The position numbers were made by a program, and so were the translations under genes. DNA of 36,130 nucleotides from Candidatus Parvarchaeota archaeon (lineage in GTDB: Archaea; Nanobdellota; Nanobdellia; Parvarchaeales; Parvarchaeaceae), in assembly GCA_023380615.1 (NCBI GenBank), contig JAMCRO010000032.1, positions 1 through 36,130 on the forward strand. Direction: 5' to 3'. The notes below the pieces were generated by a model. That model had not been told where the DNA came from. It was given only the letters and a program-made list of their open reading frames with translations, and ran no database searches. Shown here piece after piece: positions 9,866-31,553 of this stretch; positions within the stretch are counted from its first letter, which is position 1, and each line of letters begins with the position of its first letter.

Positions 9866-9977
9866 TGGGGTTGCCAGGATTTGAACCTGGGTCAAGCGGT
9901 TTCTTCTTAATCATCCTTAGCGTCATTTTTCCAGACAAGCTGGAGCCGCCTATTCTGCCTGGTTAGACTACAACCCC
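9866..9977 (-). tRNA. tRNA-Trp(CCA) with a 39-nt intron at 37/38 (9901-9939)
   Basis: Acceptor GGGGTTG/CAACCCC, discriminator A, T-arm CCAGG-TTCAAAT-CCTGG, anticodon stem GGCGG/CCGCT around CTCCAG^intron^A. Confidence 0.92.
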
Positions 9978-10508
9978 TTAAGTGAATATTTTATACTTAT
10001 CCTTGTTTTCAAGTTCCTCTTCGATTCTTGCTTCTATGCTTTTTGCTATGCCCGATGTAAAGCCCACTCTTTCATCAAAATCGCTGTAGGATTTGAACTC
10101 TCCCTTATTCCTTTCTTCTATGATCTTTTGAACCATTTTTTTACCTGCACCGGGTATAAGCGCCAAAGAATGCAGCCTTACATTTATTGGCCCAAGCCTG
10201 TTTATTATAGACATGTAATTTGTTTCATTTTGACTTACAATCTCATGTACCTTATCCGTGAGCATTTGAAGGCCGTTACCGTTTAGCTTATCCGGGGTTA
10301 TCCTCTGAATTATGTGGTGTACCTCATCTCTTTTGTTTTCTCCTATATAGACCTTCATTCCAGGCTCAACCTTAACGTCTTTTTTAAGGGCTACAAGCAA
10401 AAGACCGAGTGAATCTGTAAGAACTATTGCAGTGGCCTTCCTGTCCTTTGAGTCCTGAAGGCCGAAAGGAAGGTATTCTAAAACATAAGCGTATTCGTCT
10501 TTTCCCAT
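9978..10508 (-). CDS. DUF655 family protein (HhH-containing, RNA-binding-like)
   Basis: Typical DUF655 sequence: KVYIGENKRDEVHHIIQRI, LALIPGAGKKMVQKIIEERNKGEFKSYSDFDERVG. Confidence 0.88.
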   Translation of the reverse strand: MGKDEYAYVLEYLPFGLQDSKDRKATAIVLTDSLGLLLVALKKDVKVEPGMKVYIGENKRDEVHHIIQRITPDKLNGNGLQMLTDKVHEIVSQNETNYMSIINRLGPINVRLHSLALIPGAGKKMVQKIIEERNKGEFKSYSDFDERVGFTSGIAKSIEARIEEELENKDKYKIFT

Positions 10509-10530
10509 AGTATTAAGGATTATTTCAAAG

Positions 10531-10854
10531 TTATAAATGCTTTTTTAGCACTGTTAGAATGGCTTTTAGATCCTCTTCCTTTACATTCAGCTTTAAAGGT
10601 GAGATAATTGCCCTTATTTGATCAATAGAAGATGGGGAAACGTCGATTATCATCCTCAAATAATCATCTCTTACATTAAGATTTAAAGCGGAAAGCTCTT
10701 CAAATACGCCGTCAAAATTGTCTATCTTTATGTTCTTCTGCGTGTGGTCCAGTAGTTTTTTGCCTATTTCGGAGCCTTTATCCACAAAATCAAGGTATTT
10801 CTCCTTTACTTCAGTTTCACTTAAAAACTTCTCATCGATTATTTGGTATTCCAT
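10531..10854 (-). CDS. rpoF: DNA-directed RNA polymerase subunit F (Rpb4)
   Basis: 107 aa Rpb4-like; sits in the archaeal L21e-rpoF-DUF655 order. Confidence 0.85.
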   Translation of the reverse strand: MEYQIIDEKFLSETEVKEKYLDFVDKGSEIGKKLLDHTQKNIKIDNFDGVFEELSALNLNVRDDYLRMIIDVSPSSIDQIRAIISPLKLNVKEEDLKAILTVLKKHL

Positions 10855-10855
10855 A

Positions 10856-11149
10856 TTAGAGTCTCTTCATATGAACTGGTAAAAGGTCTATCCTTTTAAG
10901 GCTTTTACCCTGCTGTTTTACTTCCACAGTATATGCTTTTCCCTTCTTCTCCACTATTCTGCCAACCGAGCCGAAAAAGCTTCTTTGTGGAAGGTTCCTC
11001 TGTACCCTTGAATCGGGATCTACTATGATTTTATCCCCTATTTCAAAAGACTGCAGGGCCTTTTTTATATCTACCTTCCCTCTTTCTTTTACATCAAGCT
11101 TAAGCCTTTTCCTTGAACGTTTGTGCAAACCATTTCCTGTTATTGACAT
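10856..11149 (-). CDS. rpl21e: 50S ribosomal protein L21e
   Basis: GNGLHKRSRKRLKLDVKERGKV...SFFGSVGRIVEKKGKAYTVEV. Confidence 0.93.
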   Translation of the reverse strand: MSITGNGLHKRSRKRLKLDVKERGKVDIKKALQSFEIGDKIIVDPDSRVQRNLPQRSFFGSVGRIVEKKGKAYTVEVKQQGKSLKRIDLLPVHMKRL

Positions 11150-11230
11150 AATTCTATTTTATAAAGCTCCTTAGTATTTATACTTTTTTAAACCCAAACA
11201 CGAGGATGCGGATTTGAACTAAAAGTAAAA

Positions 11231-11313
11231 TGCAGAGGGAGGGATTTGAACCCTCGAAGGCCTGAGCCATAAGGTCCTTAGCCTTACACGTTTGACCGCT
11301 TCGCTACCTCTGC
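11231..11313 (-). tRNA. tRNA-Leu with apparent anticodon AAG
   Basis: Class II tRNA: acceptor GCAGAGG/CCTCTGC, A73, anticodon stem TAAGG/CCTTA enclosing CTAAGGA, variable arm GGC-TCAG-GCC, T-arm GAGGG/CCCTC. Confidence 0.92.
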
Positions 11314-11411
11314 ATAAGAGTTTAAAATAAGCTTATAATAAAACATTTACTATCTGGCAACCTATTTATAATATAAAAATAGTTTTATACGTTTAAAACA
11401 ATTTTAAAAAT

Positions 11412-12572
11412 ATGGTATTGAACATAATAATAGAGATTCTGATAGTACTATCTGTATCAATAATAATGGGAGAGCTGTTTGAACAGCTTAAATTTCCATC
11501 GGTTGTTGGCTACCTTATAGCTGGCTTAGTTATAGGCCCTTTTGTTTTCAATTTCATACAGAACAATACCGAATTGCAGGCCCTTTCCTCTCTTTCTCTT
11601 TTCTTCATAATCTTTTTATTGGGAATAGAGATGAAAACCGAATCCGTTATAAAATACCTTAAGCCTTCCATTAAAATGTCAATTACCAGTTTCATTCTGC
11701 CATTACTTCTTTCAGTCCTGCTTTCCGTGGTTTTATTCCACTTCGGATTAAGACAGGACTTTATTGTTTCGCTGTCGATAGCAGTGCCTTCAATCTCGAT
11801 TATATCCGTTCTTGTAATGAGATACAGGCTTGCAAGGGACCCGAAAGGAATTACAATTATAGGCTCAGTTGTTATAACCGATGTAATAGCATTTCTGCTG
11901 CTTGGAATAGCCTACAAAAGTGCATTAAATGCAATATTGGTAGTAATCTACTTCATAATATTCCTTTTGATATTCCTGAACGTAGACAAGATACTCAACA
12001 GAGGAAGCGAGAAACTAAGAATGCGGCTTACAAAATCAAGAAAAATACTGAAAAGTGAGCACTTTGGATATGCCATGATAATAATTATAGGGCTTCTGAT
12101 TGGAGGAATATCTCAGCTCATAGGTGTAAACTACATAATAGGAGTTTTCTTTGCCGGCTTGATAATACATGAAGGGCTTATAGGAAGAACCTTATTCGGA
12201 AAGGTGAGAAGGACCATAAAAAGAATGAACGACGGATTTTTCATACCTCTTTTCTTCAGTATTGCAGGAATAGACGTTGCATCATTTCACTCTCTTGAAA
12301 GGTTCATCCCTGCAATAGTGGCTGTATCACTCGCGGTTATATCATTTTCAATAATACTGAACTACTATTCTTCCGGAAGAATCATGAAAATAAAGAAAAA
12401 GTCTTGGAAGGTAAAAACCAGCGCAATAATAAACGGAAGAGGGGCAGTAGGGATAGCAATTGCCACTGTCGCATTTGAAATAGGTGTAATAACAAACTCG
12501 GCTTATTCAATAGCAATACTGGCAACCATAATCATATCAATAGTGGCCACTTCGCTTCTACGCAATACTTGA
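11412..12572 (+). CDS. Cation:proton antiporter (CPA2/KefB-NapA-like)
   Basis: 386 aa, about 12 TM; EQLKFPSVVGYLIAGLVIGP and NGRGAVGIAIATVAFEIGVI. Confidence 0.88.
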   Translation: MVLNIIIEILIVLSVSIIMGELFEQLKFPSVVGYLIAGLVIGPFVFNFIQNNTELQALSSLSLFFIIFLLGIEMKTESVIKYLKPSIKMSITSFILPLLLSVLLSVVLFHFGLRQDFIVSLSIAVPSISIISVLVMRYRLARDPKGITIIGSVVITDVIAFLLLGIAYKSALNAILVVIYFIIFLLIFLNVDKILNRGSEKLRMRLTKSRKILKSEHFGYAMIIIIGLLIGGISQLIGVNYIIGVFFAGLIIHEGLIGRTLFGKVRRTIKRMNDGFFIPLFFSIAGIDVASFHSLERFIPAIVAVSLAVISFSIILNYYSSGRIMKIKKKSWKVKTSAIINGRGAVGIAIATVAFEIGVITNSAYSIAILATIIISIVATSLLRNT

Positions 12573-12591
12573 TACATACAAAATAAATAAT

Positions 12592-12665
12592 TGGGGTGGC
12601 TGGGATTTGAACCCAGGTCAACTAACCCCCGAAGCTAGCATCATACCAAGCTAGATCACCACCCC
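12592..12665 (-). tRNA. tRNA-Pro(CGG)
   Basis: Acceptor GGGGTGG/CCACCCC, anticodon loop TTCGGGG in stem CTAGC/GTTAG, T-arm CTGGG-TTCAAAT-CCCAG. Confidence 0.93.
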
Positions 12666-12690
12666 TTTACAAAATAATTACCATACAATT

Positions 12691-13701
12691 CTAATTAATC
12701 TTTTTGTATTGAGGATAAGTACTAATTTCCATTATTACACTATCGGTTTTAACGGCTACTCCTTTTTTAACGGTTTTTATTTCCTCTGTCGACAATACAG
12801 ATTTACCAAGTGCTATCAGTTCACCTTTCAGTGTCATTATCCCCACAACTTCATCCTTTTCGAAATTAGTAAGTTTAACTATACCTGGAACAGCGAGTGG
12901 AGAACCATGACAGATTGGATCTACTGCCGTATCTGAGATAAAGGCCTTCGGCAAGAAGTCTATTGCTGATTCTATGCTGCCAAGACATTTGTTTAACAGC
13001 CGGTCATCATTTTCCTTTTCATAAAAATAAACTGCATCCTCTAAATCTTGCAGAGTAACCAAGTTGTCTTTTTCTGACAGCGTTGAAACCTTTGTTCTTC
13101 TTAGCTCGGTCATGTGTGCACCAACTTTTAGCTCTTCCCCCATGTCATGTATTAGCTTTCTTATGTAAGTTCCGGATTCTACACCAACTTTAAAAAGGAC
13201 ATTCTTTCCGTCTATCTCTAATATCTCAGAATAGTATATTTCTCTCTGTCTATACTGCCTTTTAACATGAGATCTAACTGGAGGTAATTGCATTATTTTT
13301 CCTATGAATTTGTTAAACGTATCTCTAAGTAATTGCTCATCAACCTCGCTGTGCAGATGCATCAGAGCGATGTATTCCTTTCCTCCAAAAAGAAGCACTG
13401 GGAGAACCTTCGTAGCGTTGTTTATGGCCAGTGGCAAAAGACCGGTTACGTTGGGATTTCTTCAATCTTCTAAAGTCCCTGAGTAACCCATCTTCTTGGC
13501 ACCTAATTCTGCCATGAGTTTCTTTGCTATGTAGGCTGCGGTCTTAGACCTTATACCTGCTGGCTTGTCCAGAAGTACAAAACCGTAGTTTATCCTCTCC
13601 GTTATACTTCTGTCCTTTGGAGCTTTGCCGTATCTGCTGTCGGTTTCTTCCTCTCTCAAGGAAAAGATTTCATGCTTGAAATCCTCCAAAGGTAGTTTCA
13701 T
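12691..13701 (-). CDS. cbf5: tRNA/rRNA pseudouridine synthase Cbf5 (archaeal TruB/dyskerin), interrupted by a 12-nt intron; join(13701..13470, 13457..12691) on minus
   Basis: N-half LDKPAGIRSKTAAYIAKKLMAELGAKKMGYSGTL; C-half PNVTGLLPLAINNATK...GKEYIALMHLHSEV...VGVESGTYIRKLIHDMG...GAHMTELRRT plus PUA domain. Both halves share a frame; in-frame TGA lies inside the 12-nt insertion. ORF track extends to a TTG at 13722; first ATG is 13701. Confidence 0.92.
13458..13469 (-). other. Predicted 12-nt archaeal BHB-type mRNA intron (AAGAUUGAAGAA)
   Basis: Outer helix GGGA/UCCC (13479-13476 / 13456-13453), central 4-bp helix CUUU/GAAG (13475-13472 / 13463-13460), 3-nt bulges AGA and AAA; cuts AG^A and AA^A give GGG ACT TTA GAT CCC AAC = GTLDPN. 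Confidence 0.88.
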
Positions 13702-13812
13702 TTCATTTAATCGTAAATTCAAAGATTAAAACTTTGCTTTTTATGCCGCTAACCAATTTATTTTAAAATAAATGAAATTTAATATTCTTTAGTTAAAATT
13801 GCAAGGATATTA

Positions 13813-29372: not shown

Positions 29373-29900
29373 ATGGGAAATAAAATGCTTGAGGAAATAA
29401 TAAAACCAAATGATGCTTCTGATTCGAAATTAAGGCTTCTTGTCATGTCCGAATTGGAGCTTGCAACTAAATTAAGCAGCAAAGACGTGTTAAACAATCT
29501 TGGCCAGCTGATAAAGAACTACGACGGAAAAATCGATGGGATAGTAATAAACGGGGGATTGGCATACATACCTGACAAATACAGCAGATTAAGAGGAGAG
29601 CGGCTGGACTTAGTTGAAGACAGATTAAAGGAAAAATACGGGGAGGATGTATACAACGAAATAAAACGCGGCAAAAGTGACTCCGATTCAATTGATGATT
29701 TAACAGAGGCTGCAAGGCTTGCAAAGATACAGATGAAAAGCATAGCGTATGAGGCAAGGAAAAAGGACATACCTTTATACTACATTTACGGCGTTACCGA
29801 TTACAAAAACGTGAAGATGATAATAGAAGCACTGGAAAGACTGAGCAGGAGAAACAACAAGGAAGAAGAAAAGATAAGCCTCTATATCATACTGCTTTAG
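29373..29900 (+). CDS. Calcineurin-like phosphoesterase, N-terminal segment ending at in-frame TAG
   Basis: KLRLLVMSELELA...DGIVINGGLAYIPDKYSR...IPLYYIYGVTDYKN; SD-like AAGGGGGG upstream. Confidence 0.7.
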   Translation: MGNKMLEEIIKPNDASDSKLRLLVMSELELATKLSSKDVLNNLGQLIKNYDGKIDGIVINGGLAYIPDKYSRLRGERLDLVEDRLKEKYGEDVYNEIKRGKSDSDSIDDLTEAARLAKIQMKSIAYEARKKDIPLYYIYGVTDYKNVKMIIEALERLSRRNNKEEEKISLYIILL

Positions 29901-29945
29901 CAGAATAAACCTGAAAACAAAACACCGGATGAGATAGAAAGAATA

Positions 29946-31553
29946 ATGTCAATAATACCCGACAGCTATAAATTCAAGGCTTCGCAGTGGAAGACCTCTG
30001 ACAAGAAAGGAATAAAGGACAAAGCAAATGACATTTACCTGCACCTAATCAACATGGTACTTAATGAGGGTAAAAACGAAGACAACATAAAGGTTTACAA
30101 AAGATTCGAAAATTTCTTGGGAGAAAAGGAAGACAACAATCCTGATGCAGAGATACTGATAAACGGTTTCAAAGTAAAAGTTTTCCACGCAATAAATGCG
30201 CTTACTGCGGGATTAAACGAAGGAAAACCAAGTGACAAAAATATAAACATGATAGTAGACTACGCCAACCTTGATGCACAGTATGGAAGACTTTCAGACA
30301 TTTACATAACAGGCAGGGGATCAGCTACTGAATTCACTGCTTTAGATTATCAAAGCAGAAAAGACCCCGTACTGATATTAAACCAAGGACCGTTAATGGA
30401 CATAGACAGGCAGTTCAAACTAAGGGCAAGCCTTAACAAAACTGATGTAGCGAAAAGACTGTCACAGTTTGAAGACAGCGGAATATCATTATTATCTGTT
30501 TACAACGACAAAAGCGTTGAAATAGAGCATATTGACATAGGTGGAATTAAAAAAGGCATAAACCCATACAAAATAAACAAAGAAAAGACAAAAGGGTCCT
30601 TGTATGAGATGGTTCAGATATCCGACTGGCATGTCGGAAATGCCGCATCGGATTATGAAGCAATGGAAAAAGTCCCGGAGATAATAAATAAGAGCCAAGT
30701 GCCTAAAGACAAAAGAATTCTATTTATAGGCGGGGATATGGTAGATGGTGGAAATGATAAGGCACAGAGAACCAAGATGTCTCTGCCCAGAGCCCCCAGC
30801 CCAGAAGAATTCCTAGGAAAACTTGAAGACATACTAAATGATAATGACAAGGAAAGAGCAAAAGGCAACTTCATGTCGGAATTGCATAAGGTAGTTTATG
30901 GCAACTCGGATATTGACCTAGGCCAGCAGGAAAAGAGACTTGATAAATATCTTAGACCATTGGGGCCTTTGTTTGAAAAGGCCTATGTTGTTGGGGGAAA
31001 CCACTTTGAAAGAGCTACCGGGAACGGAAGCGAAGGCAGAATGATAGGACCAAAGCTTGAAAACAACGGGACTAAAGAGGTAGTTTACGTAGATGATTAC
31101 CTTTTGAGGGGAGAAACGCCTTATCTTGACAGTTATGGACTATTACAATTACACAGCGCAGGTTATAGGGGAGGAGTAGACGCAAGAACTTCTCTTATGA
31201 ACACAGTAAAGAACACTGGAAAGGACTTAGTAGATATAGCAATGGCAGGAGACTGCCATGAGCCAGGCATAAAATTTGCATTGAAAAAGAAGGACGAAGA
31301 ATGGAAAACAATGGCTGCGATTACGGTTCCTGCTCTGGAGAACGAAACATACTTTGAGAGTTATATAATACACAAGCCGAATTACACAAAAGGAATAAGC
31401 GAACTCTACATACCTACTGATACAACTGTAGGAACTTCATACTTAAAGTACAGGCTTATACCTTTGCAAGGCATAAGAACTACTATGCAAGCAGAGGGTG
31501 GATCTAGATACGATCGTTTGCTTGACAATCTGCTTAAAAAGTTCACTAACTGA
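29946..31553 (+). CDS. Calcineurin-like phosphoesterase (C-terminal part in same frame as 29373-29900)
   Basis: Metallophosphatase motifs QISDWHVGN, FIGGDMVDGGN, VVGGNHFERA, AGDCHEPG. Confidence 0.85.
   Translation: MSIIPDSYKFKASQWKTSDKKGIKDKANDIYLHLINMVLNEGKNEDNIKVYKRFENFLGEKEDNNPDAEILINGFKVKVFHAINALTAGLNEGKPSDKNINMIVDYANLDAQYGRLSDIYITGRGSATEFTALDYQSRKDPVLILNQGPLMDIDRQFKLRASLNKTDVAKRLSQFEDSGISLLSVYNDKSVEIEHIDIGGIKKGINPYKINKEKTKGSLYEMVQISDWHVGNAASDYEAMEKVPEIINKSQVPKDKRILFIGGDMVDGGNDKAQRTKMSLPRAPSPEEFLGKLEDILNDNDKERAKGNFMSELHKVVYGNSDIDLGQQEKRLDKYLRPLGPLFEKAYVVGGNHFERATGNGSEGRMIGPKLENNGTKEVVYVDDYLLRGETPYLDSYGLLQLHSAGYRGGVDARTSLMNTVKNTGKDLVDIAMAGDCHEPGIKFALKKKDEEWKTMAAITVPALENETYFESYIIHKPNYTKGISELYIPTDTTVGTSYLKYRLIPLQGIRTTMQAEGGSRYDRLLDNLLKKFTN

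Follow-up and report, generated by a model that had tools for sequence, protein, structure and literature searches.

A 12-nucleotide insert in the cbf5 gene of a Candidatus Parvarchaeota archaeon is most likely a bulge-helix-bulge pre-mRNA intron

The cbf5 gene of a Candidatus Parvarchaeota archaeon is interrupted by an insert of 12 nucleotides (nt) that is, with high probability, a genuine pre-mRNA intron of the bulge-helix-bulge (BHB) type, most likely removed by the splicing endonuclease EndA and RtcB. The gene lies on contig 32 (JAMCRO010000032.1) of a metagenome-assembled genome (MAG; 645 kb, 41 contigs, 59.6% complete), and the window is the whole stretch of 36,130 nt analysed from this contig. 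The insert stands at a conserved position and shows covarying pairing with its exons, the spliced frame is intact and under purifying selection, and the genome carries genes for both EndA and RtcB. Cbf5 is an essential RNA-modifying enzyme, and here its gene is cut in two in a very small archaeon. Protein genes of archaea very seldom contain introns, and the best-studied case is that of cbf5. It was presented as a novelty of two orders of Crenarchaeota, linked to their two-subunit splicing enzyme (PMC2738675). Its presence at that very codon in ultra-small archaea of at least eight families, at lengths down to 12 nt and next to a one-gene enzyme, reopens the question of how old the intron is and of how intron type is tied to enzyme type. 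The interrupted gene and its predicted junction consist of the following features.

13722-12691, minus strand: cbf5, interrupted, with the frame broken by a TGA
13470..13722, minus strand: cbf5 exon 1 (2aus alignment; Pfam DKCLD and TruB_N), ending ...GYSGTL-G, its last base being the G of the catalytic Asp codon
13458..13469, minus strand: putative 12-nt cbf5 intron AAGATTGAAGAA with the in-frame TGA (folding and conservation in congeneric cbf5 genes)
12691..13457, minus strand: cbf5 exon 2 (dN/dS, 2aus and Pfam), with the AT of the Asp codon, then PNVTG... up to the stop
13470..13479, minus strand: 5' exon half of the BHB, with GGGA in the outer helix, CTTT in the central helix and AG as 5' bulge bases 1-2
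13458..13469, minus strand: roles within the insert, with A as 5' bulge base 3, AGATT as loop, GAAG as 3' strand of the central helix and AA as 3' bulge bases 1-2
13453..13457, minus strand: 3' exon half of the BHB, with A as 3' bulge base 3 and TCCC in the outer helix

The open reading frame (ORF) of cbf5 starts with TTG at 13722, and ATG at 13701 is the likelier start. The junction reads GGGACTTTAG^AAGATTGAAGAA^ATCCC, placing the insert after base 1 of the catalytic Asp codon (GTL|D). Deletion of exactly 12 nt (13458-13469) restores the catalytic motif GYSGTLDPNVTG, and the predicted spliced sequence across GTL|DP is GGGACTTTAGATCCC. The spliced Cbf5 has 339 amino acids (aa), contains the Pfam domains DKCLD, TruB_N, TruB_C_2 and PUA, and can be aligned to Pyrococcus-type Cbf5 from residue 13 to residue 334 (2aus, E 2e-89). 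A pseudogene or an assembly error might be suspected in a genome of so many contigs, the more so because a nearby gene carries an isolated nonsense codon (29898-29900) that is lacking in close congeners. This explanation is nearly negligible in probability. The same insert is found in 18 further congeners that were assembled separately, and the codons downstream of the stop are under strong purifying selection, with a ratio of nonsynonymous to synonymous substitution rates (dN/dS) of 0.02-0.06 between congeners. Searching the genome with the spliced query revealed no second intact copy of cbf5.

The spliced query located cbf5 in 88 of 94 relatives, which are likewise metagenome assemblies; Cbf5 identity to the named ones, labelled Ca. 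Parvarchaeota or Nanoarchaeota, is 78-95%. Within the genus, a 12-nt insert with a TGA is present at the same place in 19 of the 27 cbf5 genes, independently named MAGs included, and absent from the other eight. Two members of a sister genus have a frame-shifting insert of 16 nt, TGTGATTCACAAAGAA. In other families the insert measures 13, 15, 20, 21, 22 or 29 nt, always in the same phase of the same codon; examples read from split or stop-containing genes are G061 (13 nt), G055 (22 nt) and G083 (29 nt). In these organisms, cbf5 will probably be broken up or labelled a pseudogene by annotation pipelines. The length of the insert in the genus, a multiple of three, and the fixed place of its TGA would also suit a codon that is read through or recoded, giving Cbf5 a four-residue insertion. 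However, such a product would read GTL-E-x-*-R-N-P and lose the catalytic Asp. Homologous inserts of 13, 16, 20, 22 and 29 nt shift the frame, which in effect refutes read-through, and the covarying pairing of exon and insert is likewise contrary to it. We consider read-through very improbable.

The structural evidence is the strongest part of the case for an intron. At the junction, GGGA pairs with UCCC and CUUU with GAAG, leaving an AAA bulge, and the fold is more stable than expected by chance (z = -3.4; only one of 200 shuffles was equally stable). It has the hallmarks of a BHB: bulges of 3 nt, a 4-bp helix between them, and predicted cuts between bulge bases 2 and 3. All eight pairs form in every intron-bearing cbf5 gene examined. 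Across 16 distinct junctions, 128 of 128 pair cells form, as against 46-62% when the strands are slid, and the covariation score is 0.433 versus at most 0.212 in the slid controls. The second central pair varies among UA, CG, AU and GC in these junctions, and the search pattern described below placed no constraint on its intron strand. The exon side is also distinctive in the window's family, whose cbf5 genes were collected by protein search, independently of that pattern. The Gly codon is GGG in 21 of 21 intron-bearing and none of nine intronless members (p = 7e-8, which counts related genomes as independent and serves only as a guide). The ten exon bases 5' of the intron (GGGACTTTAG) are identical in 20 of these 21 members, while the nine intronless ones have nine different sequences.

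The transcript is thus predicted to fold so that exon GGGA-CUUU pairs with exon 2 (UCCC) and with the intron (GAAG), and the two 3-nt bulges stay unpaired. EndA would cut behind base 2 of each bulge, after AG and after AA, and RtcB would join the exons and restore GAT, the catalytic Asp codon. Translation of the unspliced mRNA would end at the TGA inside the insert. A stable hairpin that encloses the insert could also let ribosomes bypass it, as in T4 gene 60. For such bypassing, however, the take-off and landing codons do not match, since the TTA that precedes the insert is not repeated where the insert ends. The conserved 3-nt bulges, the 4-bp helix and the lengths of 12-29 nt are the signature of EndA, and the same site in Crenarchaeota holds an intron known to be spliced (PMC2738675). 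Bypassing is therefore as improbable as recoding.

The wider distribution was examined by a pattern search in 378 genomes of the class. It required GGGAC on the one side and YCC on the other. Class-wide detection therefore hinges on GGGAC, and in families other than the window's the search itself imposes part of the outer helix; no base was prescribed on the intron strand of the central helix. Matches occurred in 36 genomes, compared with seven hits for the reversed-pattern control, and 34 of them are cbf5 introns from seven families. The match in G004 was rejected since the cbf5 of this genome lies elsewhere and is intronless, and that in G144 since the pattern had matched the GHSGTLDP codons themselves. 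A phylum-wide draw added an eighth family through G458; G416 from the same draw was rejected, as its junction was not matched. Overall, cbf5 introns occur in roughly one in ten of the sampled genomes and in at least eight families, and every case has the form GTL-G^...^AT-CCN. A similar pattern for introns of 40-70 nt gave none in the 378 genomes. Each of the long cbf5 ORFs (824-858 aa) of G102, G172 and G270 (loci L182, L184, L186 and L188-L190), from three other families, holds a large insertion in frame at about residue 187, probably an intein.

Cutting and joining in the cell, and the action of a single-domain EndA alone as a tetramer, are what we infer from these sequences and from the enzymes encoded. 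EndA (C13) has 177 aa with one N-terminal and one catalytic domain, and RtcB is encoded on C20. The closest match of EndA in the PDB is the homotetrameric enzyme of M. jannaschii (1a79); the aligned residues of the Tyr-His-Lys triad are conserved, and the alignment shows no long insertion and no specificity loop. The initial annotation had invoked the three-unit endonuclease of ARMAN archaea. This enzyme, the epsilon2 EndA, belongs to Ca. Micrarchaeum acidiphilum ARMAN-2 (PMC12397907). It is of the same enzyme family, but the genus has a single-domain, M. jannaschii-like EndA of about 180 aa without an inserted specificity loop. All 28 genus members have one EndA gene above the cut-off of the Pfam model (split over two contigs in one case), and a fused three-unit EndA of about 390 aa was not found in the genus. 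As for RtcB, the match in G014 (C8:41327-44137) lies within a 998-aa open frame and is split at about residue 50, probably by an intein. The congener G016, listed as 100% complete, gives no RtcB at E 0.001, yet it has the intron of tRNA-Trp; its cbf5 is intronless, and the absence of RtcB is possibly an assembly gap.

Several points weigh against splicing of the 12-nt insert by this enzyme. The canonical form with an inner helix (hBHBh') is not seen in the window, where a loop of 5 nt allows at most one A-U pair; the 12-nt form is a bulge-helix-loop. Reviews attribute the cleavage of relaxed motifs outside tRNA to enzymes that are heteromeric or of the epsilon2 type and carry a specificity loop (PMC6379350). 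Lacking an inner helix, the 12-nt form is therefore awkward for a single-domain EndA. A partner subunit may have been missed in a genome of this completeness, and a very degenerate one could escape the Pfam model. The relaxed form is nevertheless an accepted sub-type of BHB (PMC6379350), and the loss of the inner helix lowers the case for a canonical BHB while leaving that for a BHB-type intron standing. Relatives of other families have a full inner helix (G083, G055, G099, G198, G221 and G240; loci L064, L065 and L117-L119 included) and show the canonical form of the cbf5 intron. Compared with the relaxed BHB or bulge-helix-loop introns of tRNAs, the 12-nt junction is alike in its outer helix, central helix, 3' bulge and want of a proper inner helix, but it sits in an mRNA, where no tRNA body aids recognition.

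The published cbf5 intron occurs in Desulfurococcales and Sulfolobales with lengths of 16-44 nt (Yokobori et al. 2009, PMC2738675). Its splicing has been explained by the relaxed two-subunit enzyme of these orders (PMC2738675). The intron described here, compared with it through the published position, is alike in the gene, the Asp-codon position, the BHB cut between bulge bases 2 and 3 and its patchy presence (PMC2738675). In contrast, its lengths are 12-29 nt, the shortest being below any listed in PMC2738675. It occurs in Ca. Parvarchaeota and in seven or more further families of this class, hosts whose EndA is of the single-domain kind and not the two-subunit enzyme of Crenarchaeota. A search of open-access papers, which covered few subscription journals, gave no published report of an intron in cbf5 from DPANN, Nanoarchaeota or Parvarchaeota. 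In an unrooted quick tree of 91 proteins from this class, drawn without crenarchaeal sequences, the intron trait changes 13 times, compared with 27 times for shuffled labels. At least eight of the changes are forced by well-supported branches, and such counts do not separate gain from loss. In family f21, the intronless G163 retains GGGACTCT exactly like the intron-bearing G061, and this looks like a recent loss. The codons of GTLDP (GGN ACN YTN GAY CCN) encode GGNAC...AYCC and thereby pre-make the greater part of the outer helix; a site so prepared would be prone to gain introns more than once. One reading, which we hold to be slightly less likely than not, is that a homotetrameric (alpha4) EndA devoid of any specificity loop splices a minimal 12-nt bulge-helix-loop intron from mRNA, and that introns at the Asp-codon site either arose several times over, in Nanoarchaeota and in Crenarchaeota independently, because the GTLDP codons supply most of the outer helix, or go back to before the split of these groups.

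A second intron in the window lies in a tRNA gene, both features being called by ARAGORN.

9866..9977, minus strand: tRNA-Trp(CCA) with intron
9901..9939, minus strand: tRNA-Trp intron of 39 nt at position 37/38, with a core CTGGAAAnATGAC...GGATGATTA little changed in the family and a BHB with one central-helix mismatch

The initial annotation had noted that the tRNA-Trp and cbf5 introns share their junction bases and had suggested that the genome may use one stereotyped class of BHB. Such a class, AG^...GAAG-AA^A in both tRNA and mRNA, would reflect an ARMAN-type enzyme with a sequence preference of its own. The quoted bases are correct (CTCCAG^CTTGTC...GAAGAA^ACCGC in tRNA-Trp), both introns are of BHB type, and AA^A is the commonest 3' bulge of cbf5 introns. 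The reading of GAAG as the 3' strand of the central helix holds in full for cbf5, where it is fully paired; in tRNA-Trp it faces C32-U33-C34-C35, and the central helix has three pairs and one C.A mismatch. Elsewhere in the genus, Trp introns read by eye have GTAG, GGCG or GGTG there, likewise with one mismatch. The tRNA-Trp region as a whole folds no better than shuffles (z = -0.26). The intron was called in 29 of 30 loci of 30 family genomes, at lengths of 37-43 nt. A third intron speaks against the class: tRNA-Leu(TAA) of the same genome (C20:2003-2124, L153) has a 36-nt intron that lacks these bases and reads CTTA AG^G ... TAAG AT^A. Set by hand at 37/38, four bases before the position given by ARAGORN, it forms a canonical BHB with CTTA/TAAG. 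In relatives, the bases of cbf5 introns vary with the pairing, with central strands of AAAG, AAGG, AACG, AGTG, AGAG, GGAG, AATG or GAGG and bulges of AA, AC, AT, AG or CT. With no epsilon2 EndA in the genus besides, a stereotyped class is improbable.

The likeness of the Trp and cbf5 junctions can be traced mostly to constraints on the exons and to pairing, together with a general preference for AA in the 3' bulge. The shared exon bases are A36-G37 and A38 in the tRNA, and TTA-G and the A of GAT in cbf5, while GAAG pairs with C-U-U-U. The similarity has no demonstrated meaning, and the intron of tRNA-Trp is best seen as a separate and unremarkable target of this EndA. A common origin of the two introns was rejected, as they show no sequence similarity beyond GAAGAA. 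The core of the tRNA-Trp introns (9901-9939; L122-L150) includes CTGGA, which is complementary to UCCAG of the anticodon loop; if ATGA serves as box D', C34 lies opposite the fifth base upstream of it. To judge from its sequence, this core resembles one half of a box C/D guide that would direct 2'-O-methylation of C34. The tRNA-Trp introns of haloarchaea act as such a C/D guide for C34.

A scan for hidden micro-introns by structure, as suggested by the proposed class, proved to have no power. The window contains 423 and 457 full 4+4-bp BHB sites on its two strands (about 880), barely above the 372-402 per strand of shuffled sequence. Among these sites on both strands, only that of cbf5 also has AG^ and GAAG-AA^A. 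When the window's ORFs were compared with distant congeners, 19 of 34 had a homologue, and none of the five small insertions found was bounded by a BHB. A phosphoesterase-like gene (29373-31553, plus strand) has one in-frame TAG, at 29898-29900. It was rejected as a second intron since close relatives have the same gene length and no stop there, and it is a strain mutation or an assembly error.

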